A stretch of 35,882 nt of DNA from a virus: IMG/VR virus record IMGVR_UViG_3300036401_000217, positions 1 to 35,882 of that record, one strand, 5' to 3'. Under the pieces are notes generated by a model, which saw nothing but the letters and a program-made list of their open reading frames with translations, made no database searches and was not told the DNA's origin. Shown here in pieces: positions 2,768 through 35,882 of the stretch. The number at the start of each line of letters is the position of its first letter. Positions within the stretch are counted from its first letter, which is position 1. The position numbers and the translations under genes are program-made.

Positions 2768-2769
2768 TT

Positions 2770-3682: not shown

Positions 3683-3696
3683 TAGGAACTACCAGA

Positions 3697-4273: not shown

Positions 4274-4294
4274 ACTCGCTAACGATTATATAAT
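4266..4294 (+). promoter_or_regulatory. Predicted promoter upstream of recT
   Basis: TTGATT at 4266..4271 and a consensus TATAAT at 4289..4294 are separated by exactly 17 bases, 23 bases before the recT start. The DNA here is AT-rich, so chance matches are possible. However, this is the first real gap after a long chain of overlapping genes, which makes an internal promoter reasonable. Confidence 0.5.
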
Positions 4295-4317
4295 AAAAAG
4301 AATTATAGGAGATTAAA

Positions 4318-14200: not shown

Positions 14201-14223
14201 TTATTCATCCTCTAATCTATAGG

Positions 14224-16302: not shown

Positions 16303-16304
16303 TT

Positions 16305-18152: not shown

Positions 18153-19375
18153 TAGATAGTCTCCCATTCGTTAGAAGAATAATTATCTTCACCTGATTTT
18201 TCATTATCACTGATGGCTTGAGCATTGATAGGCTTATTCAATTCCTTGGAAGAATATTTTTTTCTTTCTTTCAGATCATTAATTAATGCTTCAATTCTCT
18301 TTAAATAGGCTGATTTTGTTTCTGAATGCCCAATCTGTACTTGTTTCATAACAGATTCCAGACCTTCATTGGTTTTCGGCATACCGAATGCGCCAATCAA
18401 TGAATCGAGAACCTGATTAACCAATCCTTCATAAACAGATTGTTCGTTACCGCTTCCGCCAGTCCAGTTAGGAGTAGACCATCGGGGAAATGTATCAAGT
18501 TTTTTAATCTTATTCAAAACAGGAAGTGCATTATCAACAGAAGCAACAATATTCTGATTCTTTGTAATCATGGTATTGGTAAGGGGTATCCCATTCGCAC
18601 CCTTTATACCACCGATTGTTTCAAGCGTTCTTCTGCCGCTAGGATAGGTTGTTAAAACCCTTGTCATGCCGCTCTTGTTATCAAATTTGACTTCTGTTTT
18701 CTTTTCAAATCCTTTCTTTTTAAGAAATTCTCGGGAAAGGGGATTTTGTTCCCATAATGCATCAATCGATGCAAGCCGTGGAGTGCCTTCTGTAATGACT
18801 TCAACATTACTTGGAGAGGTTATAGCCTTTGCAGTTTCAGCTATGGGTGCAGCTGATGTTTCCATTGGCTGAGTGAATGAAGTAGGCATTTCTCTTGATG
18901 TTGGTGCAAATGGTGCATTAGGGGTAAATGATGGTGCAATTGGTGCAGAAGGATTGATTCCAGAAGTCTGCAATTGATTTTGCATGGCTTTTACAAGCGC
19001 CGGATTTAACATCGGTTGTTCAGCAGGAACAGACGGCATTTGCGACTGTGAAGGATTTGAAGTGGTATTTCCACCGCCGCGCAGGGCATTTGAAAAAAGT
19101 CTTTGAAGTTCTGCTTCCTGTTCCTGTTCCCGCTTATATTTGGCTATTTCCAGAAGTGCTTTCTGATTACTTAAGCTAGTTCCAACATTTCCAAGTTTCA
19201 AACTTTTTAATGATTCTTCTGCGCTTGGTCTAGCAAATTCTGCCTGTATCTGCTTTATGAGATCATTTTTTGGCATTTCCTTTCCAGCGTAAAAATTGCT
19301 GACGATATCACCCAATCCAGAATAATCTGGTTTCATTAACTGAGCTGCAAGAAAATTAGGAAACTGTATAGCCAT
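18152..19375 (-). CDS. Ejection protein (gp20-like by position), 407 aa
   Basis: The N-terminal MAIQFPNFLAAQLMKPDYSG and DIVSNFYAGKEMPKND are followed by a charged helical region, then a Pro/Ser/Ala-rich linker (about 105-190, with SAPIAPSFTPNAPFAPTS). A folded C-terminal part follows (GMTRVLTTYPSGRRTLETIG and VYEGLVNQVLDSLIGAFGMP). The Pro-rich linker suggests flexibility needed for ejection through the tail. Position between the 205- and 615-aa genes mirrors P22 gp20 (471 aa). Role inferred from synteny. Confidence 0.65.
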   Translation of the reverse strand: MAIQFPNFLAAQLMKPDYSGLGDIVSNFYAGKEMPKNDLIKQIQAEFARPSAEESLKSLKLGNVGTSLSNQKALLEIAKYKREQEQEAELQRLFSNALRGGGNTTSNPSQSQMPSVPAEQPMLNPALVKAMQNQLQTSGINPSAPIAPSFTPNAPFAPTSREMPTSFTQPMETSAAPIAETAKAITSPSNVEVITEGTPRLASIDALWEQNPLSREFLKKKGFEKKTEVKFDNKSGMTRVLTTYPSGRRTLETIGGIKGANGIPLTNTMITKNQNIVASVDNALPVLNKIKKLDTFPRWSTPNWTGGSGNEQSVYEGLVNQVLDSLIGAFGMPKTNEGLESVMKQVQIGHSETKSAYLKRIEALINDLKERKKYSSKELNKPINAQAISDNEKSGEDNYSSNEWETI

Positions 19376-19387
19376 GATTCATTCCTT

Positions 19388-20005
19388 TTATGCTGCTGCA
19401 CCAGCGAAAGATGATAATGCTTTCATGAACGCATTCATGAAGGCCTGTCTCTCAGCATTTTTCTGCGTTGCTGCCTGAAATCCAAGACCGCCCTGAGATG
19501 CAAGCGTGCCGCCCAATAAATCAGCCAAAGAACCAGATGCGCCAAAACCTTTATTGTAAATATCCTGTTCGCCGCTTATTCCGCCATCATAAACACGGAG
19601 AGCATTTTCCAGAAATTGCTGCATGTCCTTTGACATGATATCACCAGCCATTTCACCATATTCACGTTGATGTTCAGGAGTACCGGCTATTCCACCCGCA
19701 GCTGCAGTCGCGCCAATTCCTTTTCCAAGCTTTTCTTTTTCGTATTGAGCGCCTTTCGATTCATTATACTTGCTCATGATCATATCCATAAAGGATGTAG
19801 GATCAAGCATCTTTCCATATTCGCCTTTCAATAATGAACCAGCAGATTTTCCCTCATTGATATATGGATCATAAATTCCATGACCCATTCCAGGAATCTG
19901 TTCCAGATATTTATTGGCAGCCTTCTTGGGGTCGTCATGGTTTCCCATATCCAGTAAACCTGGCAAACTCCAGCTGCTGTTTTTATAACTATCCCACCAT
20001 CCCAT
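19388..20005 (-). CDS. Small ejection protein (gp7-like by position), 205 aa
   Basis: Begins MGWWDSYKNSSWSLPGLLDM. The middle is Gly/Ala-rich (LGKGIGATAAAGGIAGTPEH) and the end is a hydrophobic-alanine helix (AFMNAFMKALSSFAGAAA). This resembles internal virion proteins that insert in the host envelope. P22 gp7 is 229 aa and heads the ejection trio as this one does. It is followed at 12 bases by the gp20-like gene. Sequence-level homology is not certain. Confidence 0.65.
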   Translation of the reverse strand: MGWWDSYKNSSWSLPGLLDMGNHDDPKKAANKYLEQIPGMGHGIYDPYINEGKSAGSLLKGEYGKMLDPTSFMDMIMSKYNESKGAQYEKEKLGKGIGATAAAGGIAGTPEHQREYGEMAGDIMSKDMQQFLENALRVYDGGISGEQDIYNKGFGASGSLADLLGGTLASQGGLGFQAATQKNAERQAFMNAFMKALSSFAGAAA

Positions 20006-20023
20006 ATAGACCTCTTTAGACTG

Positions 20024-20296
20024 TTACGGATAAGCAGTCGTGGTAACTTTTCGTAGTGCGCCGTTTATCTTGAAAACGACTTCTTTGTTATCAGTTTCAT
20101 ACCAGAATGTACCATCTGGCATTGAAGGAGCGATTGCTACAATATTGGCAGCTGTAATCATTGGTGAAGTCCAGCCACTGTCACTTAACCCATTCTGCAA
20201 TGCCTGATTCAAAAGATCATTATAATCCTGCATTGCAATACTAAGGAATCCATCATCATCTACAAATTTTACATGCGTGAATACAGGAATAAACAT
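20024..20296 (-). CDS. Small virion-associated protein, 90 aa
   Basis: Occupies the place just downstream of the gp10-like hub, where P22 encodes its 233-aa tail needle gp26, but it is far too short for that trimeric coiled coil. The C-terminal half, ending with DGTFWYETDNKEVVFKINGA and LRKVTTTAYP, is a motif I associate with the start of phage appendage proteins. It is separated from the hub gene by 1 base. It may be a minor tail protein; unknown. Confidence 0.6.
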   Translation of the reverse strand: MFIPVFTHVKFVDDDGFLSIAMQDYNDLLNQALQNGLSDSGWTSPMITAANIVAIAPSMPDGTFWYETDNKEVVFKINGALRKVTTTAYP

Positions 20297-20297
20297 A

Positions 20298-21926
20298 TCA
20301 GTTTCCTATCTCCATAGTGCCATTTTTCACTACAAACCTTCCTGTTCCCCAGAATCTTAATTGATAAGTTATCTGTTGAGCATAACCAAGATTGATAAAC
20401 CTTGGCTGATTCTGGAATTTTCCTGTTGCCTTTAACTGGTAGGAAACAACATTGCTAAAACTTATCCCACCATTCTTTGAAATTGTAAGATCAACCCTTG
20501 GCTTGTTTATGTAACAATACCCGCCTTCAACCAATATAGGCAATCCATCTTCGGTATATATGATCACCTCTGTATCTTCTGTAATGATATACCCAAAACA
20601 AGTAGGCTGCTCATAAGCGCCCTGAGTTGTTCCACTCTCAATGACAAAGGTAAAAAGATTGATCTTGTATTTCTCAGGTCTTTTAAGCCGATAAGTATCT
20701 GTCAATCTCACCCGTGGAATTTCATAAATCACATCCAGACCTGCAGAACTTGCGGTTGGCAATAACTGATAGGTTGTAAGATCAATTCCTATTTCATAAA
20801 TCTTGCCATCCTTGTAACTTATGAAATAAGACTTGTTATTGAAAAATACAATCTGCCTTGCAGGAAAAGCGGTGAAATCCCAATCTGTAACATCATAAAT
20901 CTTGTTCATGGTGAAATCGTACATGATCGAAAAATTATCAGATGGATCGATGAAGCTTAGAACATAAAAATCATGGCCTGCCTGACGGAAAAGAAAAGCC
21001 GTTGATGCAGATGGAACTTTTACAGTTCCAAGAAGATTATCAAGTCCATCAGTTGATATCCTTGAAGCTGAACCGCCTTTCATTGCCATCAATGCCGGCG
21101 TGGATTGTTCATTGATTCCTAGCCATGCAACCACTTCATCATTCGCGGCAATCGTTGAAACAGATGCTGCACCGAAGTCTATATTGATGGATGAGTTTCT
21201 CTGATATACCGCTAATCCGCCTATGTTGTTCCAGATTTCTGCTACAGTCGAACCAAAAACAAGAAGGTTATTTCCTTTGCCTGGTATTCTTATGGCAGCT
21301 TCTGCAAAATCTGATTTTGTCTGTAATGCAAGAGTTTGTACCCAGTTAAGATCATAGATTCCCGTTAATGTATCCTGCTCGAACACTACCCATTGAGAAC
21401 CATTATTTGTGGTTAATCCATTGCCAAATATGAAATAGGTATTTTGGTAAGTAACATAATTCGGCTGGAATAATGTATCCACTGGAACATTATTAAATAT
21501 AGCAGCGCCGATTGCAGAAGGAGCAGAAACATAATTATATATATACGCCGTACCGCCTGCCGTGAAACAAATCTGAGAGGAAAGATTTTCTGCAAATGTA
21601 ACTTCACCTGTTGTTGATCCTATCGTGCCAATCTGTGTGGCAACATTTGAAAAACTGTTTATCCTGAAAACTGCACCAGCGGCGACCACCAGAATAAAGC
21701 CACCGCGAATTGAATGAAATATTCCCCTTCCCTCAACATTCTCGGTGAACATTTCCAGTATTCCGGCATAGCCAGGAAAATTCGTAAGCCATTCTTCTGC
21801 CCCATCACCGGATGATGAAACAAACATATTGTAAGTACGTTCAGCAGAAATTGTTGGATAAATGCCAAATACAGAACTACCGACAATCCGGACAGGAACT
21901 TCATCCACTGCAGTAGTTAAAGGCAT
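20298..21926 (-). CDS. P22 gp10-like packaged-DNA stabilisation / tail hub protein, 542 aa
   Basis: Beta-propeller-like sequence with repeated FxxxYFxxGN blocks. MPLTTAVDEVPVRIVGSSVF leads into YPTISAERTYNMFVSSSG, then WLTNFPGYAGILEM, GGFILVVAAGAVFRI, and NTYFIFGNGLTTNNGSQWVV. These are features of the Phage_stabilise family (P22 gp10, 472 aa), which sits between the gp4 adaptor and the tail needle and plugs the DNA channel. It follows the gp4-like gene exactly as in P22. The extra length may be C-terminal (LRFWGTGRFVVKNGTMEIGN). Confidence 0.78.
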   Translation of the reverse strand: MPLTTAVDEVPVRIVGSSVFGIYPTISAERTYNMFVSSSGDGAEEWLTNFPGYAGILEMFTENVEGRGIFHSIRGGFILVVAAGAVFRINSFSNVATQIGTIGSTTGEVTFAENLSSQICFTAGGTAYIYNYVSAPSAIGAAIFNNVPVDTLFQPNYVTYQNTYFIFGNGLTTNNGSQWVVFEQDTLTGIYDLNWVQTLALQTKSDFAEAAIRIPGKGNNLLVFGSTVAEIWNNIGGLAVYQRNSSINIDFGAASVSTIAANDEVVAWLGINEQSTPALMAMKGGSASRISTDGLDNLLGTVKVPSASTAFLFRQAGHDFYVLSFIDPSDNFSIMYDFTMNKIYDVTDWDFTAFPARQIVFFNNKSYFISYKDGKIYEIGIDLTTYQLLPTASSAGLDVIYEIPRVRLTDTYRLKRPEKYKINLFTFVIESGTTQGAYEQPTCFGYIITEDTEVIIYTEDGLPILVEGGYCYINKPRVDLTISKNGGISFSNVVSYQLKATGKFQNQPRFINLGYAQQITYQLRFWGTGRFVVKNGTMEIGN

Positions 21927-21955
21927 TTATTTTTATCCTGTATTAAGCCAACCGC

Positions 21956-22669
21956 CTAACGACTGATCGGCCACCATCCGCCACTGAGATTGGCAACTGC
22001 GTAATTTATCGCGCCACCACCACTAAGAGAGCTGAATTTCTGTGTTCGCAAATCCATAACATTAGTGTTATTGGTAATCCACTGATTGTATTTTTCAAGT
22101 TGCATGGTTACATCAGGTGGAACACGGAATGAATTAAACTGGCATAATCTATCTGCCAGTAAATATTTAAGATAATTGATATAGAACTGATCGAGTATAA
22201 GCGATAAATCTTCCATCAATGTAACGGATGCAAGCCTGAATTCACCCCATAATTCAAGTGGAAAATTCGTATCTGGAACAAAATACAAATAAAGGGTTGC
22301 GCCGCCCAGATTTCTTTCCACATGCCAGTTAAAAGGCAAACTGTTTATATCAACCTGACGAAATGAACCAAAGAATTGTTGGCGCTGCTGATTGAGAGTC
22401 TGGAATCTAAGTCCATTGATATAGAAAACGAAAACTTCAAGATCAATAAGATTAGGAATTGGATAAACAGACTGTCCTGAAACGGCATTCATCAAAAGTT
22501 GTTTAGTATATGGAATAGTTCCATGATCAATTGTTCTATCTGACAACACATCATTAAGTTTGGCTAGACCATCAGTAATCTGATTACCAGTTACGGTTTC
22601 AAATTCTCGGCTGACAATGCTGCTGAGGTAATATGAATCAGTAATAAGCTCAGTAGTCAAATAAGCCAT
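21956..22669 (-). CDS. P22 gp4-like head-tail adaptor (tail accessory factor), 237 aa
   Basis: Predicted to bind beneath the portal ring to start tail assembly. The helical N-terminus TTELITDSYYLSSIVSREFE with DGLAKLNDVLSDRTIDHGTI, and the C-terminal FYINYLKYLLADRLCQFNSF followed by LEKYNQWITN, resemble the gp4/gp10-bridging adaptor family. P22 gp4 is 166 aa, so this one has an insertion of about 70 residues (VFYINGLRFQTLNQ... region). It is placed directly upstream of the hub gene. Good SD AAGGGAT before the start. Confidence 0.72.
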   Translation of the reverse strand: MAYLTTELITDSYYLSSIVSREFETVTGNQITDGLAKLNDVLSDRTIDHGTIPYTKQLLMNAVSGQSVYPIPNLIDLEVFVFYINGLRFQTLNQQRQQFFGSFRQVDINSLPFNWHVERNLGGATLYLYFVPDTNFPLELWGEFRLASVTLMEDLSLILDQFYINYLKYLLADRLCQFNSFRVPPDVTMQLEKYNQWITNNTNVMDLRTQKFSSLSGGGAINYAVANLSGGWWPISR

Positions 22670-22689
22670 GATGGTCTATCCCTTTAATG

Positions 22690-23436
22690 CTAGATCGTGT
22701 ATTGATAGCCAGCAACATTCAATGCCACAGTTCCGGCAGATACCTTGTAGTTGATCTCTGGAGCTGCAACATTAAGTTGAGCCTGCACATATTCACGAAC
22801 GAGTGTATGAGCAGAAGCACCAGCGACAGCGGCAATATATTTGCAAGTATCACCAACAGCATTAAATGGTTGTAATGCCAAAGTATCGCCAGCAGCATTA
22901 GCAGTCCAATTGATTTCCATCTTTGCAAGAACATTATTAACCGCCGGAACGAATGTGGTTAAAACGACGGGTGCATATGTTGCTGATGCACCAGCAGTAA
23001 TTGCTGTAGCAATTGGAACATCATAAACAAAGGTACGTTCATTGGCCGCACCACTCCAATATCCAAGGAGAAACAGCGATGATCCATCTGTTCTGACATA
23101 ACCAATCAATCTGAACATGTCATAACCAACCGGCATCAATGGAGAAGAATTATTTAATGATAAAACTGCGCCCACAGGGTTATTCTGAGAGGAATCACCG
23201 ACAACATAAATACCATATAATTTATTTGTTGTTAATGAACCAGTATCCAGACCATTTATGCCATTTTTAGCAGCATTAATGGTTACGAGAGCAGAAAGGA
23301 TAATATCATTTACATTGGATGAATCTCTCGCCTGACCAGCCGCCATTGTCAACGTAGTAGTAGTTGCAACAGCCAACTGTAAGCCTTGTACATTTAGATA
23401 ACCAGAATTTACAACAGGTATATTAACTTGAGTCAT
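22690..23436 (-). CDS. Putative capsid decoration protein, 248 aa
   Basis: Beta-rich, Ala/Thr/Val-rich and cysteine-poor: MTQVNIPVVNSGYLNVQGLQ, then AAGQARDSSNVNDIILSALV, PLMPVGYDMFRLIGYVRTDG, and a C-terminal NYKVSAGTVALNVAGYQYTI. It lies between the coat and adaptor genes, a usual place for decoration or head-fibre proteins. Its ribosome site AGGAGCAATAAAATG is identical to that of the first early gene. The family resembles phage virion proteins of this size, but I cannot name it. Confidence 0.6.
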   Translation of the reverse strand: MTQVNIPVVNSGYLNVQGLQLAVATTTTLTMAAGQARDSSNVNDIILSALVTINAAKNGINGLDTGSLTTNKLYGIYVVGDSSQNNPVGAVLSLNNSSPLMPVGYDMFRLIGYVRTDGSSLFLLGYWSGAANERTFVYDVPIATAITAGASATYAPVVLTTFVPAVNNVLAKMEINWTANAAGDTLALQPFNAVGDTCKYIAAVAGASAHTLVREYVQAQLNVAAPEINYKVSAGTVALNVAGYQYTI

Positions 23437-23461
23437 TTTATTGCTCCTAAATTTGTCATTA

Positions 23462-23514
23462 TCTTATCAAGTTCCCCATTGATAATTTCAACAGGGAACT
23501 GACTTGCGATAAGA
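23462..23514 (-). terminator. Long hairpin immediately downstream of the coat gene
   Basis: TCTTATC (23462..23468) pairs with GATAAGA (23508..23514), and inside it AGTTCCC (23470..23476) pairs with GGGAACT (23494..23500). Together they make an interrupted 14-bp stem in the 79-base gap after the coat stop. No long U-run follows, so it may be a partial terminator or a 3' stabiliser that raises coat mRNA over the downstream genes. Confidence 0.5.
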
Positions 23515-23515
23515 A

Positions 23516-24766
23516 CTATAACGGGAAAATGATTGCCATAGCGTTATCATCAACCTGTGTTTTACCCCAGATGGAATCATGCACTGTGCCATACAAGTTC
23601 TGACCGAACTGTGCACCGGTATACATACGCAAGGATGCGCCAGTATCCATATCAGTTTTTACGGCAGTCATGAATGGGTCGCAATCTGGTAATGGTGGAA
23701 TCGCGGCATAAAACTGATTGCCTGATTGAACCATGCCAACCCTGTGAGAAGGCAGAACCTTGACTTGCATACCAGCAACAATCTGTTGGGTAATATTCTG
23801 GTTCTTTCCATTTGCAGCCTGTAAAGGTGGGTTAATGCTGACAGTAACCTGTGAACCACCCGTACTTGCAGCGCCTGCAGTTGCAGAGAACTGAACTGGA
23901 GAAGCAGAAGGTTTGTGACCGATAAAAGTACGGAAACGGATATTATTAAATCCGGCTACATTATCCTGGAACTGGAATCTGTCATATTGCACAACAGAAA
24001 GAGGATCGCTAGGGGCATTTGTACCACTGAATGTAATTGCAATGACGCCACCATCAGAATTAACAACGGTGCTTACTACGGTTAATGTAGTACCAGCCTG
24101 ACCTTCTGAACCTGAGATATGTTCTGGCAAAAGGTTTGATTCAAACCATTCGCATTTGCTGAACGCGCCAAGTTCCCAACTGTTGCGTAATTCTTCGTTA
24201 CCATTTGGAACAAACTGATTCAAGCCTGAACCAACGATATCAGGAATGATGATATCGGAGAGATAAGCTCTCGTCATATCTTTGGCAGCGCCGAAATTCC
24301 TGAAGAAGGCCAAAAGTTGGCCGAGCTGATTAAAAGAATTAATTGGAGTGACGCCATTTCCGAAGAAACGGTAAGGAGAAGATTCACAAAGACCAGCAAT
24401 ATCTGATTCAATGACCGCACCAAGTTCATCAATGGCAGCCTTACCGAATCTGTCCATGTAATCTTCAAGGTTAAAGATTAACTGTTGAGCAGAAATGTCA
24501 ATGCCGACATTCTTGGACTGGTCAACGACCAAGGTTTGAACTCTTTGTTCAACGCCCTGAAAGTTTACAACCAAGCCATCATTTGCAACAAAACGGGGTG
24601 GCTTATCAAATGTAATCGTATCGCCCAAGTTGGCAGGATTGGCTTTCTGGAAATCACGATATTTTTTATTGGCAGTTGCTATGAAACAATTTGAATTCTG
24701 TAGATATGCAAGATCAGCTTCGTTATAGGTTTGTACATTTTGAACTATATTATTTGGCAAAGCCAT
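23516..24766 (-). CDS. Major capsid (coat) protein, P22 gp5-like, 416 aa
   Basis: Main shell protein. MALPNNIVQNVQTYNEADLA is followed by LQNSNCFIATANKKYRDF, then GDTITFDKPPRFV, and QSKNVGIDISAQQLIFNLED with YMDRFGKAAIDELGAVIESD. These match the P22 coat family (HK97 fold with an extra I-domain). P22 coat is 430 aa. Middle residues about 210-330 would hold the insertion domain and beta-hinge. Strong GGAG precedes the ATG, and it lies just downstream of the scaffold gene, the usual order. Confidence 0.88.
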   Translation of the reverse strand: MALPNNIVQNVQTYNEADLAYLQNSNCFIATANKKYRDFQKANPANLGDTITFDKPPRFVANDGLVVNFQGVEQRVQTLVVDQSKNVGIDISAQQLIFNLEDYMDRFGKAAIDELGAVIESDIAGLCESSPYRFFGNGVTPINSFNQLGQLLAFFRNFGAAKDMTRAYLSDIIIPDIVGSGLNQFVPNGNEELRNSWELGAFSKCEWFESNLLPEHISGSEGQAGTTLTVVSTVVNSDGGVIAITFSGTNAPSDPLSVVQYDRFQFQDNVAGFNNIRFRTFIGHKPSASPVQFSATAGAASTGGSQVTVSINPPLQAANGKNQNITQQIVAGMQVKVLPSHRVGMVQSGNQFYAAIPPLPDCDPFMTAVKTDMDTGASLRMYTGAQFGQNLYGTVHDSIWGKTQVDDNAMAIIFPL

Positions 24767-24817
24767 GATGTTATCTCCGACAAGTTAATCATCGGGCAAA
24801 ACATGGCAAAGTAAATA

Positions 24818-25531
24818 TTATCCCCTAAACATGCGCTTGTAATCTTTCATGGTTAGTTTGCCATTATCCTGCCCCGTAGGGGAAGATGACAAACGGCCTA
24901 GAGGCGGCGCTACTTCTTTTTCCTGCGCTTTAGCCTGTTCATTGGCTTTGATGGATGCACTGATACGATTAAGCATATTCTGTGCTGCTTGCGGATCGCG
25001 TTCTGAAAGAACCGTAAGGGTTGCCCACTTAGCCGGATTCTGCATCAGTTCGTACATAACCGCAGGCGTATTATCCACCTGATTAGCCAGATAAACGAGG
25101 TTCGGGAATGCTTCGGGTCTGAAATCGGCCATGACAGTATCAAAATCCTCGAATGAATCCTTACCGGCTTTCATCTTGGAATGATATTGATTAGCTATTT
25201 CTTTCGCCTTATCCTGCAATTCTTCCTGTGCCTTGGCTTCACTGGCATCCTGAAACTGCTTTCTCAAATCAGCAAGAATCTGCTGCTTGATTTGCTCAGG
25301 GTCTATTGGTGCAGCCATGCCACCCATTGAACCCTGTTTTTTCAGCTGCTCATTTTCCGCTTTGATGGCATCCAGTTCAGATTGCAAGTTATCTCTCCCC
25401 TTGAGTTTGGCTTTCTTGATAAGTTCCTCAACGCGAGAGACAGGTATCATCTTCTCTGTTGTAGTTTCCTCAGCGGAAACATCAGCAGGAGCGGATTCAA
25501 CCTCCCGATCTAAAAATACCTCATCAGTCAT
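24818..25531 (-). CDS. Scaffolding protein, 237 aa
   Basis: Acidic N-terminus (MTDEVFLDREVESAPADVS), long helical coiled-coil region (about 28-135, with LQSELDAIKAENEQLKKQG), Gln/Ala-rich middle, and a basic C-terminus KLTMKDYKRMFRG. A short basic C-terminal coat-binding helix is the hallmark of P22-type scaffold, which is 303 aa. Location directly upstream of the coat gene supports the call. It guides procapsid assembly and should leave before packaging is complete. Confidence 0.78.
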   Translation of the reverse strand: MTDEVFLDREVESAPADVSAEETTTEKMIPVSRVEELIKKAKLKGRDNLQSELDAIKAENEQLKKQGSMGGMAAPIDPEQIKQQILADLRKQFQDASEAKAQEELQDKAKEIANQYHSKMKAGKDSFEDFDTVMADFRPEAFPNLVYLANQVDNTPAVMYELMQNPAKWATLTVLSERDPQAAQNMLNRISASIKANEQAKAQEKEVAPPLGRLSSSPTGQDNGKLTMKDYKRMFRG

Positions 25532-25691
25532 TGTCTATCTCACTTTTGCCGTTGTGAACGTGTCCGCATGGTTTAAGTTCCAAGAACTGCCATTTGTGCC
25601 GCATGGTTGCGTGTTCGCCGGATTATATGCTTTCCGTAAGCTATTACAGAATATCGTATATAGTACGTAATAACAATGCAATACTGAGATT
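25532..25691 (-). promoter_or_regulatory. Promoter and leader of the scaffold-coat operon
   Basis: On the minus strand TTGCAT (25676..25681) and TACGAT (25653..25658) are separated by 17 bases, a plausible sigma70 promoter about 120 bases before the scaffold start. The leader has a perfect AGTTC-TTG-GAACT dyad (25576..25588) and two copies of CCGCATGGTT on the plus strand (25564..25573, 25599..25608). A 26-codon leader frame (MRHKWQFLELKPCGHVHN...) ends at the scaffold start, but lacks a good ribosome site. Confidence 0.45.
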
Positions 25692-25865
25692 CTATTTTTT
25701 GCCTTTATGATGTTTGGCTTTCATTTTTGCCTTTGGCATCTTTTCATGTTTGCCTTTGGCTTCATGAGCGGCTTTTTCCATATGATGTTTTGCCTTTTCA
25801 TGATGATGGGCAGCCTTTTCCATATGCTTATGAGCTTTGGCATGATGTGCGCTTGTATGTTTCAT
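25692..25865 (-). CDS. His/Lys/Ala-rich mini-protein, 57 aa
   Basis: Begins MKHTSAHHAKAHKHMEKAAH, continues with HHEKAKHHMEKAAHEAKGKH, and ends in Lys/His repeats. GGGAG lies 8 bases before the ATG. The composition, about a third Lys and a quarter His, suggests binding to nucleic acid or metal. Similar basic mini-proteins are common beside portal genes of P22-like phages and may be internal head proteins. The family has no known function. Confidence 0.7.
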   Translation of the reverse strand: MKHTSAHHAKAHKHMEKAAHHHEKAKHHMEKAAHEAKGKHEKMPKAKMKAKHHKGKK

Positions 25866-25879
25866 TTATTTCTCCCAAA

Positions 25880-26074
25880 TTATTTATGTTTCATTTTACG
25901 GAAATTTTCCGCGAGTATAGCACGTTTTTTTAAAAGTGGATTTTTACTTTTGGCGGCTTTTGCTAATTTCTTCGCAGGAATTTTCTTGTCACCTTTTACA
26001 CCTAATTCTTTTCGAAGTGCGCCTTTTTTCAAATCCATTTTTGCAATAAACTTTTTTGGTTTTTTGGCAGTCAT
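25880..26074 (-). CDS. Lysine-rich mini-protein, 64 aa
   Basis: MTAKKPKKFIAKMDLKKGAL leads to RKELGVKGDKKIPAKKLAKA and a basic end LKKRAILAENFRKMKHK. The motif F-I-A-K-M-D-L-K-K-G-A-L-x-x-E-L-G-V-K-G-x-x-x-I-P-A-K-x-L is a phage pattern I recognise from structural loci. It is highly positively charged and may neutralise packaged DNA. It overlaps the next upstream gene by 4 bases. Function unknown. Confidence 0.75.
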   Translation of the reverse strand: MTAKKPKKFIAKMDLKKGALRKELGVKGDKKIPAKKLAKAAKSKNPLLKKRAILAENFRKMKHK

Positions 26075-26226
26075 TTCTTTTTCCTCTTTTTCTTTTTACC
26101 TGACCTTGCTTCGGAGTAAGCAATCGCTACTGCTTGCTTCTGCGGTTTTCCTGCAGCCATTTCTTTTTTCACATTCTCAGAAAAACCTTTTCTGGTCTTA
26201 GCCTTTTTGCCTTTGATGAGGGGCAT
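26071..26226 (-). CDS. DUF6496-like basic mini-protein, 51 aa
   Basis: MPLIKGKKAKTRKGFSENVK followed by KEMAAGKPQKQAVAIAYSEA is the common phage and bacterial pattern M-P-L-x-K-G-K-S-x-K-x-x-x-x-N-I-x-x-E-M-x-x-G-K-P-x-K-Q-A-V-A-I-A-L. The family is sometimes labelled DUF6496; its role is unknown. The C-terminus is almost pure Lys/Arg. It forms an ATGA overlap with the 25880..26074 gene and TAATG with the gene upstream. Confidence 0.75.
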   Translation of the reverse strand: MPLIKGKKAKTRKGFSENVKKEMAAGKPQKQAVAIAYSEARSGKKKKRKKK

Positions 26227-26345
26227 TATTTCATCCCCTTCTTTTTTTTCTTTTTCTTCAAGTTATCTGCTTTTGGCGCTTTCGATAATTTCTCACCATA
26301 TTCATTCTTTGGCTTCGGTGTTTTCTTCGGGCAAGCTTTTTTCAT
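26226..26345 (-). CDS. Lys/Pro-rich mini-protein overlapping the portal, 39 aa
   Basis: MKKACPKKTPKPKNEYGEKL, then SKAPKADNLK and a run of lysines ending GMK. The first 44 bases overlap the 3' end of the portal gene in another frame, with GGAG 8 bases before the ATG inside the portal. Its stop forms a TAATG with the next gene. The stretch of A/T homopolymers encoding the Lys run could be a slippage site. Small DNA-neutralising protein by composition only. Confidence 0.6.
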   Translation of the reverse strand: MKKACPKKTPKPKNEYGEKLSKAPKADNLKKKKKKKGMK

Positions 26346-28446
26346 TTGATTCTCCTAATTCGTTAATATGAGTGCTTAGATGTGTAGCCATTTCAACTGC
26401 AGTTCTTGCATTTTCACTATCAACTTTCTCTTGCTGTAATGCCCTGTCAAGATCAGCGCCTTGAACCTTGCTCATTACCTCAAGGAATTTTATATCAGAA
26501 TCCTTGTTCTTGACTGCCTCACTTGATGATATTTTTGCCATTTCAACTTCTGCCTTGAGCATGTTTCCTTCTTTCTCGTTTTGCACTCTCAGCGCTTCAA
26601 TATCCAGCTGGCTTTTCATTAATTGATCTGGTGTCATGGTATCTTTTTGGGCTTCCCTAGCAAGTTCAGCTTGTTCCTGCTCTTTCTTCATCCATTCTTG
26701 TGCAAGGAATCTCAACTTGTCGATACCCTTGATATCAATATTTTCGAGCAATATCTCAAGCCCTTGCTGCTCGATGAATGCCTTGAATCTCTCACTGATT
26801 CCCATGAGATGTTCTATTGTTTTCAGTGCAATCTGTTTCTGAACAGCAAAATTAACGCCAGGCTCAATGGAAACTTCAAGGGCTGAAACATCATAATCAA
26901 ACTTGATATTATTGCCTTTGTTAATTTCGTAGAAATCACGTTTGCCGTTAGGAAGCATGATTGGAATTGTTCGCGGCGTAACAAAATACTTTGGCAAAAG
27001 ATTCAGATAAATTTCGCCACATCTTGCCCAACCTTCAATAAATCCCATTGTATAAGGCATTGCTGCAGCATTGGAGTGCATAGCACCTTGCATGATAGCT
27101 ATACCAGATATGTCATTATCATTTACACCGATTGCAGCATCATATGAACCAAGAATGGTTTGAACGGTTGCATCCGCCATTGTGAAGGTATTTGTTATTT
27201 CAGGTGGGATTGGCGTTCTGGTAATTTCACGAGGTGGATTAATAGGCATTTTTGGATCGCCATTTTTCCACTGATTATAAAGAAGAACGCTAGCTTTTTG
27301 TGGTTCAATATAAGCTTTCATATAATCTTTATTAGCTGGAATACCTTCTACCGGAGCAACCCATTTATGCTGAACAAGTCCTTCAATCTCATTGCAAAGA
27401 GTCTGACCCGCAAAGTTTTTCATGCGCTGCGTATCCCTTGCCTGATAGACATAGGGTCTTACAACCTGAACAGCTGCAGAATTTTCATCATCCCTCACAA
27501 TAACGCTATTGCCATCGAAGAACACCAGCGGAAGCATGGAGAAATTTGTAGGCTTGTGATCTATGATCTTTGTACCTGTGATGATGTATTTATCAATCGT
27601 CTGTATTTCAGTCATACGGGATTTCAGAACGATTGGGGGCTGCTCCATAACACCAGCATCTTCCCATTTCTGTAAGAAAGCCTCATATTGTTTTTCAGTG
27701 ACGGAATGCCCATTGGCAAGCTTGAGGATTTTTGTTCTTACCATTTTCTTTTTGAAGTATTCGCCGAATAAAATAATATCTTCGCTCTGATTTCTATATG
27801 ACCAGTTAAAAGATGCGATATTGGAATTTCTGGTGAAATTCACATCCTTCAAAATATCTGAGCCATACATTTCTTCGGCTTCGCCCGCACTTTTTGGGAA
27901 CAGTTCACAACAGAATCTTCCATCACCTTTATGGGATTGGCGGGCTAAAGGGTCAAACACTGTCAAGGTTGGATCAAATACCCTTTCCACATAGATTTTC
28001 TGATCAAAACACATTTCATCAGCATAATCTGTAAAAATTTTTGCAACACTATAACCGCCTGAAAGAATCTGGCGGTAAATGTGATAGCTAAGTGAATTCT
28101 TGTCACCCCCAATGAATGCTGCTTTCAGATGCGCTTCAACCAGTTCAATAACACGAGGATCAATAATTTTTACGCCTTCCTTCCCGCGCACTGAAAAAGC
28201 CGGATCCATTTTTGAGAATTCACCACATAATCGGCTTACAAAAGCCTCGAGTATGTTGAACTCCATATTGGGTTTGTCGATTTCCTTGTTTACGGATGCA
28301 TCGGAAGGGGTTATGGAAGTCTTGAAAACAAATCTTGTGAAATCGTTATAGCATTTATAATTTGAGCGGAAATAATTATAACCCTTTTCCACATCACCCT
28401 TGATAGTGTCAAAATCGTTTCTCTCAACCTTCTTAACGTAGCTCAT
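26302..28446 (-). CDS. Portal protein, P22 gp1-like, 714-715 aa
   Basis: Twelve-subunit ring at the DNA-entry vertex. Length (715 aa from the chosen start) is close to P22 gp1 (725 aa). NYFRSNYKCYNDFTRFVF and PNMEFNILEAFVSRLCGEFS near the N-terminus, ILSGGYSVAKIFTDYADEM, and WVAPVEGIPANKDYMKAYIE belong to the P22-type portal family. The C-terminal helical part (barrel-like) has EQAELAREAQKDTMTPDQL and ALQQEKVDSENARTAVEM. The start at 28446 (MSYVKKVERNDFDTIKG) gives a short overlap with terL; an ATG at 28467 is possible. It is followed by a run of basic mini-genes. Confidence 0.85.
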   Translation of the reverse strand: MSYVKKVERNDFDTIKGDVEKGYNYFRSNYKCYNDFTRFVFKTSITPSDASVNKEIDKPNMEFNILEAFVSRLCGEFSKMDPAFSVRGKEGVKIIDPRVIELVEAHLKAAFIGGDKNSLSYHIYRQILSGGYSVAKIFTDYADEMCFDQKIYVERVFDPTLTVFDPLARQSHKGDGRFCCELFPKSAGEAEEMYGSDILKDVNFTRNSNIASFNWSYRNQSEDIILFGEYFKKKMVRTKILKLANGHSVTEKQYEAFLQKWEDAGVMEQPPIVLKSRMTEIQTIDKYIITGTKIIDHKPTNFSMLPLVFFDGNSVIVRDDENSAAVQVVRPYVYQARDTQRMKNFAGQTLCNEIEGLVQHKWVAPVEGIPANKDYMKAYIEPQKASVLLYNQWKNGDPKMPINPPREITRTPIPPEITNTFTMADATVQTILGSYDAAIGVNDNDISGIAIMQGAMHSNAAAMPYTMGFIEGWARCGEIYLNLLPKYFVTPRTIPIMLPNGKRDFYEINKGNNIKFDYDVSALEVSIEPGVNFAVQKQIALKTIEHLMGISERFKAFIEQQGLEILLENIDIKGIDKLRFLAQEWMKKEQEQAELAREAQKDTMTPDQLMKSQLDIEALRVQNEKEGNMLKAEVEMAKISSSEAVKNKDSDIKFLEVMSKVQGADLDRALQQEKVDSENARTAVEMATHLSTHINELGESNEKSLPEENTEAKE

Positions 28447-29995
28447 TGCGCTGCGCCCTCGCTGCATGTGTGCGGTTCATCTGATTCCCAATGATGTTCA
28501 TCACATCCTCGGCTGATTCATTCGATTTAGTGCCAGATTGACCATGAAGGGATTTATCTATCAGGGCAATCTTTATGCCATCATAAACTGTATCGCAAAT
28601 ATCATCATGGCGATGAGAATCATTCGCCGTGATCTTTTCCATATGTAATTTGCATTTTGCTACGTGTTTCGCGCCTTTGGTGAAGGTAAGGCGTTTGCTT
28701 GCAATGTAAGGCTGCATTTCAATATATCGGACAGTCTTGCTGCCAGAAGCAACCGTTCGCATTACATCCCTGATCTGTATTCCCTGTATATTATCCAGAG
28801 TGCTTATCAAAGTCACCCCTGTTGATTTTTTCTCAATTGCAGCGGTAAATGGGGGTGTAGGATGGCGGGAACATTCTGTCCAGAATCCTAAAAACAGATT
28901 TGTGAGGTCTTTAGGTTCAACCCATTCTTCCACACAATCAATCCAGTGTAGGCCTAAATCCCCAGTTTTTCTTCCGAATGCCTCTATTTCATATATGCCG
29001 AAAAAGCTTAAGGCGGTTGGGTCGTTATAAGTCTTTTCTGTTTCGCCGGTATCAGCAGTAAGGAAGGTTAAAAGGAATTTAGGTTCTTCTTCCAGTTCAA
29101 GCATCCAGTTTGGCCGGAATAAACCACCGCCTGCAGGAGAAGGATTTTGCTGAAACTGTCCAGCAAAAACATAGGGAGATTTCTCCATTAGCGCGTGAAG
29201 CTTTTCTTTTGGGTCTATTTCAGGATAAAGCGCGTTGTCGGCTTCATCCAGTGCTTTTAGAATGACTGAATGCCATTCTGTAATATCATGGCCTCCAATC
29301 AGGAAATCGGATAAATCCCCTTCATGGACGCGCTGACCGACATTGATAATCGGAACATTCAGGCCACGCGGTCGCTGGCGGATGGTTTCCACGTAATTAT
29401 CCAGTACCTTTTGCCTCATGGTATCGGAATGTGCTTCATCAACCTTGTGGGCGTCATCAATGATACAAGCCCCACTAAATCTATCCAGTCCTGGCAATCC
29501 AGCATCCTGCCCCGTGATAGCACCGCCAGAACCAAACGCTTTTATTTTTCCACCTGCCATTGTTTCAAAGGAATCACGAGCGCGGCTATCCTTTCGAAGA
29601 TGAACTTCAAAAAGAAATTTGTACATCCTGCTTTCCATGACTGTTTTAATGAAAGCGGTATGCTTTACTGCAAGATCAAATGAATAGCTTATGTAAAGAA
29701 AGTTCGAATCTGGATATTCAGAAAGACACCATGCCACCCACATGCAAAGAATTGTGCTTTTGCCGTATCCGGGCGGAACATTGATATTAAGCCGGTGATT
29801 AGGAATCTGCAGGCGTTTTGCCTCAGTCAAAGTCCTGCATAATGTAATGTGATGTGATTCCCTGCCAATGGGCTTGCTTATAATAAAATCGCGACCTGTT
29901 ATGTGTTTAAAAAAAAACTGGATAAAATAGAGGAATGAACCTTTCAGTTCAGAAGCAAGAATTTCCTTTTCCATTTTATCAAGTTGACTACGCAT
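28433..29995 (-). CDS. terL: Terminase large subunit, 520 aa
   Basis: DNA-packaging ATPase and nuclease. Walker A is VPPGYGKST (about 73-81) and Walker B is GACIIDDAHK (about 175-184). The nuclease domain has FLTADTGETE (Asp about 315) and ends with a conserved acidic pair in SHRHDDICDTVYDGI, with AIEKKSTGVTLI between. The length is typical (P22 gp2 is 499 aa). It overlaps terS by one base (TAATG) and the portal by 14 bases. Headful packaging is inferred from the P22-like module and the circular assembly. Confidence 0.92.
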   Translation of the reverse strand: MRSQLDKMEKEILASELKGSFLYFIQFFFKHITGRDFIISKPIGRESHHITLCRTLTEAKRLQIPNHRLNINVPPGYGKSTILCMWVAWCLSEYPDSNFLYISYSFDLAVKHTAFIKTVMESRMYKFLFEVHLRKDSRARDSFETMAGGKIKAFGSGGAITGQDAGLPGLDRFSGACIIDDAHKVDEAHSDTMRQKVLDNYVETIRQRPRGLNVPIINVGQRVHEGDLSDFLIGGHDITEWHSVILKALDEADNALYPEIDPKEKLHALMEKSPYVFAGQFQQNPSPAGGGLFRPNWMLELEEEPKFLLTFLTADTGETEKTYNDPTALSFFGIYEIEAFGRKTGDLGLHWIDCVEEWVEPKDLTNLFLGFWTECSRHPTPPFTAAIEKKSTGVTLISTLDNIQGIQIRDVMRTVASGSKTVRYIEMQPYIASKRLTFTKGAKHVAKCKLHMEKITANDSHRHDDICDTVYDGIKIALIDKSLHGQSGTKSNESAEDVMNIIGNQMNRTHAARAQRNELR

Positions 29996-30351
29996 TAAAA
30001 CTCTTTTTGATTTTTAATCGCCAAATCTTCACGAATCTTTTGCATTTCCTCGAGAATTTTATTTTCCGTATCTTCATCCTTGCTATTATCACGCCATCTC
30101 GCCCTGGTCTTAAGCCAGAATATTTGAGCACCAAGATCATCTTGCTCAGTTGCCTTTGCAAATAATCTTCCAGCGACCAATGCATTTGCACGAGTAACTG
30201 CAGTAGCGACTTCACGGCTGTAATGCTGATGAAGGGTAGCTTCGCAAATACCTAGATAATCGGCGACCTCGATATTGGTATGACCATAGCTTTTGAGAGC
30301 TTCAACCTGAGCGCGGGATTCTTCGGTAGGTTTATGTTTAGAGCCTTGCAT
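29995..30351 (-). CDS. terS: Terminase small subunit, 118 aa
   Basis: The start at 30351 (MQGSKHKPTEESRAQVEALK) has GAGGT 9 bases upstream; a start 21 bases earlier lacks one. NIEVADYLGICEATLHQHYS is a helix-turn-helix for pac-site recognition. It is followed by the family region EVATAVTRANALVAGRLFAK and AQIFWLKTRARWRD. A basic/acidic coiled C-terminus probably mediates ring formation. Direct upstream position to terL supports the call. P22 gp3 is longer (162 aa). Confidence 0.83.
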   Translation of the reverse strand: MQGSKHKPTEESRAQVEALKSYGHTNIEVADYLGICEATLHQHYSREVATAVTRANALVAGRLFAKATEQDDLGAQIFWLKTRARWRDNSKDEDTENKILEEMQKIREDLAIKNQKEF

Positions 30352-30480
30352 GATAATGACCTCTAATTTCATGAATTATGTTCATAATATATAAAAATAT
30401 CACAAAAATGTATTTAATAGACCTGAAACTTAATATTCATTTTTTGCACAACTGTTTTATCACTTACCGAATTTTGATCA

Positions 30481-33140: not shown

Positions 33141-33238
33141 TTAAGTTTTTATTAATTTTATTTTTTAGCTGGTTAGTAATATCAGGTATAGCGGCATTTT
33201 CATTGTATTATTTTTATAAAGGGATTTGCGACGAATGA
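33137..33238 (+). CDS. Small membrane protein, 33 aa
   Basis: ATGA junction and AGGAAGGAAAC ribosome site. MIKFLLILFFSWLVISGIAA continues as a hydrophobic single-pass segment to about residue 26, then YYFYKGICDE. It is one of several small membrane proteins in the early blocks. The tight coupling on both sides (ATGA, ATGA) supports it. Function unknown. Confidence 0.6.
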   Translation: MIKFLLILFFSWLVISGIAAFSLYYFYKGICDE

Positions 33239-33429
33239 GAAATAATAACTGGATAAAATGCTCTGATAGATTGCCTGAAAGTGAATGCTGGTATCTTTGT
33301 TACAAAAATACATGGAAAAAATACGTTATTATGCAGTTTGATATGAAAAGAAACGGTTTTTTCTATTCAGCTTGTAGCCAGCCTACACACTGGATGCGAC
33401 TTCCTGCGCTACCAGAGGTAGCAGAATGA
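33235..33429 (+). CDS. DUF551-like protein, 64 aa (paralogue of 874..1047)
   Basis: MRNNNWIKCSDRLPESECWY is followed by FDMKRNGFFYSACSQPTHWM and RLPALPEVAE. W-I-x-C/V-S-D-R-L-P and T-H-W-M-x-L-P are the DUF551 signatures, closer to the textbook form than the copy at 874. The start at 33235 (ATGA overlap) is preferred to one 9 bases upstream. Function unknown. Having two copies on opposite sides of the repressor suggests duplication. Confidence 0.78.
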   Translation: MRNNNWIKCSDRLPESECWYLCYKNTWKKYVIMQFDMKRNGFFYSACSQPTHWMRLPALPEVAE

Positions 33430-33908
33430 AAATAAATGATATGCCTATAAAATTACAATTATTAACACAAATGTTTACTGCATATATAGCAAATGAACTT
33501 TATACCTCAAATTTTGATGATGGATATGATGAACTTGACAGTAGAAAAATAAAGGACGGAATGAAACTTGAAGTAATTACTGATAATCTTTATTTAAGTT
33601 TCCCAATATTATTTAATCCAACTGATAAATTGTTAAGCGAAAGAATAAGCTTACATACTTTTTTTGAAGAAAAATGTCTTCCCATTATAAAAGAATCAGA
33701 AAACTGGAGTGTAATAAAACGAATTAAAGCCGATAAATCCTTGAAAATTAAATTCATTAAATTACCTGATTATGATCCATTTCTTTTCATTCATATTATA
33801 GATGTTGAATCGAATACAAAAATACGCGGAATATATGGATCGATGTTTGGTGAAAAAGATCAATGTCTTATGTTTGATATGCAAATATACTTAGCGAAGG
33901 AGATATAA
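33426..33908 (+). CDS. Hypothetical protein, 160 aa
   Basis: ATGA overlap with the DUF551 gene. The protein begins MKINDMPIKLQLLTQMFTAY and continues with ELYTSNFDDGYDELDSRKIK, then a C-terminal part rich in Phe/Ile and Lys (FHIIDVESNTKIRGIYGS). It is a full-length soluble protein without Cys clusters or known motifs. It is the largest unknown of the right block. AAGGAG lies at its very end for the next gene. Confidence 0.65.
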   Translation: MKINDMPIKLQLLTQMFTAYIANELYTSNFDDGYDELDSRKIKDGMKLEVITDNLYLSFPILFNPTDKLLSERISLHTFFEEKCLPIIKESENWSVIKRIKADKSLKIKFIKLPDYDPFLFIHIIDVESNTKIRGIYGSMFGEKDQCLMFDMQIYLAKEI

Positions 33909-33910
33909 AA

Positions 33911-34021
33911 ATGTTAGAAATAATACTTACTATAATTATAGGATTCTATTCAATAGTGCTAGCTTTTTGTGGTTTGGGAATGCTAGCTTTTTTTTATTTG
34001 AGATTGAAAGGGAAGCTTTAA
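33911..34021 (+). CDS. Small membrane protein, 36 aa
   Basis: AAGGAGATATAAAAATG is a strong ribosome site. MLEIILTIIIGFYSIVLAFC followed by GLGMLAFFYL is one long or two short hydrophobic stretches, ending RLKGKL, a positively charged inside tail. It may be a small inner-membrane accessory or holin-like protein. No family recognised. Confidence 0.6.
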   Translation: MLEIILTIIIGFYSIVLAFCGLGMLAFFYLRLKGKL

Positions 34022-34022
34022 T

Positions 34023-34160
34023 ATGACAGATCAAGAATTGATTCTATATTATGAAAAATATAAAAATTATCAAGCTGGTGTGATTGAAATGTCTCTTAAT
34101 CTGCGAGATTTGATGAGACTTTTTTATCTTGTGAAGAATGATATTTTAGAAATTATATAA
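34023..34160 (+). CDS. Hypothetical protein, 45 aa
   Basis: Starts 1 base after the previous stop with AAGGGAAG upstream. MTDQELILYYEKYKNYQAGV and IEMSLNLRDLMRLFYLVKND form two amphipathic helices, a pattern of small helical hairpins. No motif recognised; supported by spacing and ribosome site. Confidence 0.55.
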   Translation: MTDQELILYYEKYKNYQAGVIEMSLNLRDLMRLFYLVKNDILEII

Positions 34161-34173
34161 GGAAATTAATTAA

Positions 34174-34497
34174 ATGAATTACCCAAAAAAATATTGCATA
34201 CAAGGTTGTGGTGAAAATGATGATGGTGGTGCTTTTAGGATTCCATTCAAAAATTATCAAATTTTTGTAATTGCAAGTCATGGCGGTGATTGGAATCATG
34301 TTTCTGTAAGTCTTGCTGATAGATGCCCTTCATGGGAAGAAATGTGCTATGTGAAGGATTTATTCTTTAATCCAGAAGATTGTGTGATTCAGTATCATCC
34401 ACCCAAATCTAATTATGTAAATAATAATCCCTATGTTTTGCATCTATGGCAACCACAGAATGAAAAAATTCCAATGCCCCCCGTTATTTTTGTTTAA
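34174..34497 (+). CDS. DUF7694-like phage protein, 107 aa
   Basis: MNYPKKYCIQGCGENDDGGA is followed by the family motif GDWNHVSVSLADRCPSWEEM, CYVKDLFFNPEDCVIQYHPP and NPYVLHLWQPQNEKIPMPPV. W-x-H-V-S-V-S-L, R-C-P-(T/S)-W-x-E-M, and Q-Y-H-P-P ... LHLWxP are the signatures of DUF7694 proteins of phages and some bacteria. No function is established. AAGGAAATTAATTAAATG is the start region. Confidence 0.78.
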   Translation: MNYPKKYCIQGCGENDDGGAFRIPFKNYQIFVIASHGGDWNHVSVSLADRCPSWEEMCYVKDLFFNPEDCVIQYHPPKSNYVNNNPYVLHLWQPQNEKIPMPPVIFV

Positions 34498-34509
34498 GGA
34501 TAATGAAAA

Positions 34510-34944
34510 ATGAATATGAATGAACAAGTAATAAGTTTGGAACTTGCAAAGAAATTAAAAGAACTTAATATTGAACAAGATAGTTATTTCTTTTGGTGTA
34601 AAACTGCTCCGATTTTAACTTCTTCTGGTACAGATAAAGCACCTGAATGGAAAGAATTACATTTATTTGATGAATGGACAAGAAAGAAAATTGATTATTA
34701 TGAATCATATTCAGCATTTTCCTGTTCTGAATTAGGCGTAATGCTTCCAAAATATATTAAAAAAAATGATTTTGAATATTATTATTCTCAAGTGCCGTCC
34801 AAACATTGTAATGAATGGGTAATATTTTATGGAAATTCTTTTACTTTCTTGGAAAATTGTGAGGTAGAAGATGTAAGCGAAGCTGAATGCAAAGCAAAAA
34901 TGTTAGTTTATTTAATCGAGAATGGTTTGATGGAGTTAAAATAA
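34510..34944 (+). CDS. Phage protein, YSAFTCSELGEMLP family, 144 aa (paralogue of 3108..3500)
   Basis: MNMNEQVISLELAKKLKELN starts a helical head, then QDSYFFWCKTAPILTSSGTD, YSAFSCSELGVMLPKYIKKN, and the end KAKMLVYLIENGLMELK. AAGGATAATGAAAAATG gives a usable ribosome site. Relative to the left-block copy this one has an insertion in the FFWCKTAP...EWTRKKID region. Function unknown. The next gene overlaps its stop by one base. Confidence 0.78.
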   Translation: MNMNEQVISLELAKKLKELNIEQDSYFFWCKTAPILTSSGTDKAPEWKELHLFDEWTRKKIDYYESYSAFSCSELGVMLPKYIKKNDFEYYYSQVPSKHCNEWVIFYGNSFTFLENCEVEDVSEAECKAKMLVYLIENGLMELK

Positions 34945-35171
34945 TGCCTAAAACCATAAAAATTATCTGTGATCAATGCAAACGTGATATTACTTATACT
35001 GGAAATTGTGAGGATTATAAACTTGTATTATCAAATGAATCCATCCCTCATAATCCAGAATGTAGCGCTGTAACCTGTATGGCTTCATATCCTCATATTG
35101 ATCATGATGTTTATTTCTGTAATGCAAGATGTTTGAAGGATTGGGTTATAAATAATATTTATAAGGAATGA
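34944..35171 (+). CDS. Zinc-finger-like small protein, 75 aa
   Basis: TAATG junction. MPKTIKIICDQCKRDITYTG, then ECSAVTCMASYPHIDHDVYF followed by CNARCLKDWVINNIYKE. Three or four Cys pairs (CDQC, EC..TC, CNARC) plus His residues point to a zinc-binding fold similar to treble-clef proteins of phages. Role unknown; it is conserved-looking and part of the right block chain. Confidence 0.7.
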   Translation: MPKTIKIICDQCKRDITYTGNCEDYKLVLSNESIPHNPECSAVTCMASYPHIDHDVYFCNARCLKDWVINNIYKE

Positions 35172-35175
35172 AATA

Positions 35176-35325
35176 ATGATTAATGATTGGTTGCAAATAA
35201 TAATTATGGTTATATGTCTAATATTAATTTTAATTTCAATATTCTGGATAATGCCTTATATGTATAATGATTGCATTAAAGTAGGCCATACAAATTTATA
35301 CTGTATTTTACATATTTTTAAATAG
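35176..35325 (+). CDS. Small membrane protein, 49 aa
   Basis: AAGGAATGAAATAATG ribosome site. MINDWLQIIIMVICLILILI followed by SIFWIMPYMYNDCIKVGH: one hydrophobic segment (about 7-26) and a Cys/His-containing tail ending CILHIFK. It may be an inner-membrane accessory protein. No family recognised. Confidence 0.6.
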   Translation: MINDWLQIIIMVICLILILISIFWIMPYMYNDCIKVGHTNLYCILHIFK

Positions 35326-35357
35326 ATTAACTTTATTAATGGAAAAGGAGAAACATG

Positions 35358-35528
35358 ATGTTGATTTTAACGAGAATGCCAGGGGAAACTATTATCATAG
35401 GTGATGATATAGTTATAACGTATATAAGAAGAAATGGGAATCAGGCCATACTTGGCTTTGATGCTCCAAAAGAGATAAACATAAGACGTTCTGAACTGCC
35501 AGAATATAAACGACCAGATAAAAAATAA
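35358..35528 (+). CDS. csrA: CsrA/RsmA-like translational regulator, 56 aa
   Basis: The protein MLILTRMPGETIIIGDDIVI followed by TYIRRNGNQAILGFDAPKEI and NIRRSELPEYKRPDKK aligns without gaps to E. coli CsrA (61 aa). Shared features are MLILTR, GET at 9-11, IGD at 14-16, GNQ at 27-29, APKE at 36-39 and R44. The RNA-binding residues L4, R6 and R44 are kept and V42 is Ile, but R7 is Met. AGGAG lies 5-10 bases before the start (two ATGs at 35355/35358; the second gives the canonical N-terminus). CsrA dimers bind GGA motifs in mRNA leaders. It lies last in the right early block, convergent with the repressor gene (3-base gap). Confidence 0.9.
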   Translation: MLILTRMPGETIIIGDDIVITYIRRNGNQAILGFDAPKEINIRRSELPEYKRPDKK

Positions 35529-35531
35529 TAT

Positions 35532-35765
35532 TTAGAATTGGTCGGGGCGAAGGTATTTGTAAGTAATATCCACTCCCTTTGTCTTGACCAGTTCAATATA
35601 ACGGTTACATATCCGGATTCCTGGCTTTATAGTGCCTCGCTCAAACTTGCTTACTGTTGCCCCTTTACCGAGTTTTAATAAATCGCTCAGTTCAGTCTGA
35701 GTTACTTTAAGAACATCAATCCGCAAATGTCTTAATCTTGAAGCAATCTTTTCTGAATAATCCAT
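35532..35765 (-). CDS. XRE-family HTH repressor (Cro/CI-like), 77 aa
   Basis: Predicted DNA-binding regulator of the early promoters. MDYSEKIASRLRHLRIDVLK is followed by VTQTELSDLLKLGKGATVSK and FERGTIKPGIRICNRYIELV, a clear XRE helix-turn-helix (recognition helix about 33-43). The small size lacks a CI dimerisation/cleavage domain, so it resembles Cro or a short repressor. Its start is just 27 bases from the CACTA/TAGTG operator (37..52, circular coordinates) that also overlaps the divergent early promoter. Autoregulation and repression of the first block are inferred from this layout. Confidence 0.82.
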   Translation of the reverse strand: MDYSEKIASRLRHLRIDVLKVTQTELSDLLKLGKGATVSKFERGTIKPGIRICNRYIELVKTKGVDITYKYLRPDQF

Positions 35766-35882
35766 AAATATGCCTTTTAATTATATTGTATCACTATTAT
35801 GTTAGTGGTATATTCTCTATATCGTATTATATAACATTAAAAGGTTAGTAAATATATTAATTTTTTTAAGGAGCAATAAAAT
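35756..35882. repeat. Terminal direct repeat, right copy
   Basis: Exact copy of bases 1..127. Remove one copy to obtain the 35,755-bp unique circle. P22-like phages package by headful and give permuted molecules that assemble as circles, which fits this pattern. Confidence 0.95.

Follow-up and report, generated by a model that had tools for sequence, protein, structure and literature searches.

Introduction

CsrA is an RNA-binding regulator with which bacteria control translation, and CsrA-type proteins carried by phages are already established. A survey from 2020 found csrA in 30 of 2517 phages (PMC7366521), and a study from 2021 reported many phage RsmA/CsrA proteins in GenBank and IMG/VR, with an occurrence that correlates with hosts having CsrA (PMC8450108). 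RsmA represses cas mRNAs, and an anti-CRISPR effect of the phage RsmA/CsrA proteins has been proposed (PMC8450108). In the Pseudomonas phage AUS531phi, deletion of bci, a gene with a csrA domain, altered the expression of quorum-sensing genes as well as biofilm, motility, pyocyanin and infection (PMC7546807). The plasmid-encoded RsmQ has a global effect on the proteome of its host (PMC9928087). In our searches, E. coli CsrA matches were obtained in 91 of 50,697 phage records, a few of which may be host-derived, and 481 IMG/VR contigs match the CsrA family by one pattern or profile. In view of the two surveys, these counts and the bci knockout, any rarity of phage CsrA that the initial annotation of the present locus may have suggested is not borne out.

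The csrA gene considered here lies in a stretch of 35,882 nucleotides from an uncultured bacterial virus, positions 1 to 35,882 of the IMG/VR virus record IMGVR_UViG_3300036401_000217, called the window below. What it newly adds is a divergent member with a few unusual residues. It shares a gap-free alignment and the core strands with bacterial CsrA/RsmA/RsmE (E. coli CsrA, PDB 1Y00; RsmE, 2JPP) and likewise has L2, L4, R6, Q29, A36, P37 and R44, but it is 43% identical to E. coli CsrA, carries R31I, R7M, H43R and Y48P, and has no predicted C-terminal helix. Bci/RsmM of the Pseudomonas phages AUS531phi and F116 is likewise a CsrA domain encoded by phages and close to early nuclease or repressor genes; however, it has 123 amino acids with a long C-terminal extension, compared to 56 amino acids here. 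The CsrA-like regulators of Vibrio phages (1.232.O, D65, D279 and 219E41) are similarly short (57 aa), have a non-basic position 7 (T) and are 51-53% identical over 47-48 aa, but they come from other phages and keep R31 and a helix-type C-terminus (EIYDRIA). RsmQ (plasmid pQBR103) and CsrT (Legionella ICEs) are, like the present gene, mobile-element copies of CsrA that are proposed to act on host mRNAs, although in a plasmid or ICE setting rather than a phage, and RsmQ has been experimentally characterised.

The csrA gene and the predicted fold of its product

The gene and the site in front of it are:

35345..35350, + strand: Shine-Dalgarno-like AAGGAG region (from sequence), ca 7 nt ahead of the 35358 start codon
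35358..35528, + strand: csrA-like gene, 56 aa (Pfam CsrA, phrog_9500, Foldseek to CsrA/RsmA/RsmE chains)

The csrA gene is real. Its open reading frame consists of 56 codons plus a stop and translates to MLILTRMPGETIIIGDDIVITYIRRNGNQAILGFDAPKEINIRRSELPEYKRPDKK. A second in-frame ATG is present one codon upstream, at 35355; with the start at 35358, the N-terminus is MLILTR, as is typical of the family, and the spacing to GGAG is 7 nt. The GC3 is 0.25, compared to 0.21 for the neighbours and 0.30 for the genome. 

The protein matches the Pfam CsrA family (PF02599) with 65.6 bits and an E-value of 3.8e-18 (3.8e-19 in a second search), which is so far over the curated cut-off of 27 bits that the match is not due to chance. 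The PHROG search returned CsrA-like families, with phrog_9500, a CsrA-like regulator, at 1.1e-17, and nine distinct CsrA/RsmA/RsmE sequences were matched in a sequence search of the PDB. The AlphaFold2 monomer has a pLDDT of 79, and its first 15 Foldseek matches are without exception CsrA, RsmA or RsmE chains, with a probability of 1.00 and query TM-scores of 0.54-0.71. Membership of the CsrA family is supported by the sequence and by this predicted fold. The initial annotation had described the frame as a 56-codon CsrA and named a profile search and a structure prediction as checks; the Pfam match, the gap-free alignment with E. coli CsrA and the agreement of the predicted monomer with CsrA chains all confirm it.

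A C-terminal helix is common in CsrA, yet the C-terminus is variable and dispensable for the Pfam match. In the model, which has P48, no helix follows strand 5, and the local pLDDT is only ca 60.

Residues kept and changed

The alignment with E. coli CsrA reproduces exactly what had been noted before, namely that L4, R6 and R44 are kept, while R7 is replaced by M and V42 by I. Both L4 and R44, which read the RNA in this family, are therefore present. All residues that are invariant in a 15-protein alignment are also retained (M1, L2, L4, R6, G27, G33, A36, P37, R44 and E46). In a larger survey of 92 aligned rows, representing 91 distinct proteins, there is hardly any variation at L2, L4, R6, A36, P37 and R44, and every one of these residues is found in the phage CsrA. 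The weight that the initial annotation placed on R7 does not hold up, since this position varies among homologues (R/K in 79 of the 92 rows, and also T, N, H and Q) and R31I had been overlooked, together with H43R, the change of V22/G24/V25 to Y/R/R, and Y48P. At position 31, R/K occurs in 89 of the 92 rows and isoleucine solely in the phage protein. Judged from these alignments, R7M is unusual but not unique in its loss of charge, and R31I is the more unusual change.

In the complex of RsmE with RNA, the hotspots are L2, L4, R31 and R44 and the warm spots K7, Q29 and H43; L2, L4 and R44 touch the bases and the remaining ones the backbone, and alanine replacement of L2, L4 or R44 lowers the affinity 62-150 fold (PMC6191724). 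Position 31 is thereby predicted to be an RNA-backbone hotspot. The phage protein would thus keep the base reading by L2, L4 and R44 and lose two backbone contacts through R31I and R7M, a loss that the new arginines at 24, 25 and 43 might offset. Y48P is predicted to break the usual C-terminal helix. The surface of this helix is where CesT binds CsrA (PMC5864733), and P48 and the putative absence of the helix would remove it. The loss of R31 and of a basic position 7 and the predicted loss of the usual helix together suggest that the affinity is altered and that antagonists which bind the helix, such as CesT and FliW, would no longer act.

We have also considered the scenario in which the phage protein is a competitor of host CsrA, disturbing rather than replacing the host regulation by forming hypothetical mixed dimers with it or by titrating sRNAs of the CsrB/RsmZ type. 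The putative loss of backbone contacts by R31I and R7M, with the fold kept, fits a partly defective subunit. However, the three residues with the large alanine effects are intact and the extra arginines may compensate, and we find this scenario unlikely. A more specific version, with an interfering subunit that retains base reading, lacks the R31 backbone contact and the C-terminal helix, enters mixed host dimers and escapes the host antagonists, is in our view very unlikely.

Genome context and relatives

The features of the window that are relevant for the setting of csrA are:

35756..35882, no strand: direct repeat of window positions 1-127, exact match, circular closure
35532..35765, − strand: HTH transcriptional regulator, Cro/CI-like (phrog_8 transcriptional regulator at 1.1e-6; Pfam HTH_31 weak, below cut-off)
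33226..35326, + strand: run of small genes upstream of csrA, forming the variable early region; for most of them the relatives have no homologue (profile matches, synteny)
34174-34497, + strand: DUF7694 gene within this run (profile match)
1955..5067, + strand: early recombination genes past the circular junction, RecE-type exonuclease, Lar-like protein and RecT (profile matches)
13799..30372, − strand: virion and packaging module with tail proteins, head closure, major head protein, scaffold, portal, TerL and TerS (profile matches), common to csrA-less relatives

Because of the identical 127-bp ends, the contig closes to a circle of ca 35,755 bp and the genome is complete. In two relatives, G151 and G157, the circle is likewise closed by 127 bp, and since the length is shared, the overlap seems to stem from an assembler k-mer and not from a biological repeat. 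The gene content includes TerL, TerS, a portal related to the P22 type, a head protein, a scaffold, the head closure Hc3 and a T7-type tail-fibre N-terminus, as well as RecE, RecT, RusA, a Lar-like protein and Q-like genes. The genome is that of a complete, circularly closed podovirus-like phage, and the terminase, the portal, the head protein and the circular closure place csrA in a genuine phage setting. No tyrosine integrase was found in the phage genome or in nine relatives, which leaves a temperate life without support. The tRNA and Rfam scans gave nothing, and the sites in the promoter scan are no more numerous than in shuffles.

The csrA gene and the Cro/CI-like HTH gene are convergent (tail-to-tail) and 3 bp apart. 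Within the DUF7694 gene, 34291-34434 matches the DNA of the Yersinia phage YerA41 at 70.8%; the phage collection gave no other DNA match to the csrA region. The family phrog_31971 (function unknown) is matched twice, by the genes at 3108-3500 and 34510-34944; the latter is located a few genes upstream of csrA, and homologues are present in csrA-less relatives. The Lar-like restriction alleviation protein, at 2770-3108, adjoins the RecE-type exonuclease. A second IMG/VR contig (L002; 5,490 bases) is 100% identical to 26048-31537, in the packaging module, and stops short of csrA.

A capsid-protein scan yielded 24 related viral contigs. Seven near-complete relatives (30-37 kb, capsid identity 78-87%), of which two close to a circle, are all without csrA, and the only related contig that has it is a distant one (G158, 40% capsid identity), where the protein is 59% identical over 46 aa and the setting is different. 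The virion module is common to the relatives, while the csrA neighbourhood is not. The absence from near relatives and the unshared neighbourhood identify csrA as an accessory early-region gene, which in the wider group would have been gained more than once or lost often. In G158, csrA (L167:5353-5628) has an N-terminal extension and is followed by a small, seemingly antitoxin-like gene.

The absence from close relatives, along with the several odd substitutions, could also be taken to mean that csrA is a transient or decaying insert of little consequence. Against this, the frame is open and has a good ribosome-binding site, all family-invariant residues are intact, and the base composition is like that of the neighbours. 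This is the least probable of the explanations considered.

GGA motifs and phage mRNAs

For the initial annotation, the GGA of phage leaders hinted at targets among the phage mRNAs. Among 57 window genes, 56% have GGA in the Shine-Dalgarno zone of the leader, but outside this zone it is near background, with a mean of 0.51 per leader compared to the 0.43 expected from the genome average. At 12 shared gene starts, A-N-GGA amounts to 0.42 here and to 0.72 in the csrA-less relatives (p 0.125), and is thus not enriched. As read from the leader sequences, GGA near the starts reflects Shine-Dalgarno sites.

These counts bear on the possibility that the phage CsrA chiefly regulates phage mRNAs, acting for instance on its own leader or on the switch from early to late genes. 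The csrA leader does have two GGA motifs, one of them in the Shine-Dalgarno site, but it is less structured than shuffles, and no CsrB-like GGA cluster or GGA-rich decoy RNA beyond shuffles, and no Rfam match, was found. Together with the near-background GGA and the lower A-N-GGA value, this makes such a role distinctly unlikely. By GGA counts, the phage's own mRNAs are unsupported as main targets, in a weak test that leaves room for a single target.

Proposed function

We now turn to the reading that we prefer, to which we assign a probability of roughly 55%: the accessory csrA would encode an early translational regulator of CsrA type, possibly with altered affinity, that acts on host mRNAs in favour of the phage. 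The gene, which lies in the variable early region, would be expressed early in infection, and its product would fold as a CsrA-type dimer and bind GGA-containing RNA by the kept L2, L4 and R44 contacts. Host mRNAs bound in this way, whether for metabolism, for motility or for defence (cas genes, for example), would then be translated differently, to the benefit of the phage.

This reading is supported by the Pfam, PHROG and PDB matches, by the agreement of the fold with CsrA chains and by the retention of the family-invariant and base-contacting residues. It is further supported by the lack of GGA enrichment in the phage's own leaders, by the effects of the bci deletion on host quorum-sensing gene expression and infection (PMC7546807), by the repression of cas mRNAs by RsmA and the tracking of CsrA-bearing hosts by phage CsrA (PMC8450108), and by the global action of RsmQ (PMC9928087). 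The accessory early-region position argues in the same direction, as does the location of csrA near exonuclease, SSB or repressor genes in other phages (VvAW1, F116, AUS531phi and G158). Counting against it, R31I and R7M, by removing two backbone contacts, could weaken the binding. Of the initial annotation, the CsrA homology and host reprogramming as the leading idea stand, while any suggestion of rarity, the emphasis on R7 and the GGA leaders do not.

By acting on translation, phage CsrA proteins may switch the metabolism, motility and CRISPR defence of their hosts. To these proteins, the present one adds a divergent, minimal CsrA (56 aa, R31 lost) in a phage group whose close relatives are without csrA, a natural setting for comparing phages with and without it.

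Origin of the gene

A tree of 91 CsrA proteins did not resolve; the phage CsrA is on a long branch, and the tree points to no origin. No plasmid CsrA was matched by tblastn with the phage protein as query, and an IMG/VR search with the single phage CsrA sequence gave no close relatives. TerL and the capsid protein of the phage gave no host assignment, as even their best matches in 146, 369 and 399 sampled genomes are distant (38% and 31%). The nearest CsrA proteins come from gammaproteobacterial MAGs. One gammaproteobacterial MAG, GL140_2_metabinner_81 (G001; L003-L010, L020-L030), contains csrA matches on nine separate contigs, and one of these matches is divergent (57.6 bits).
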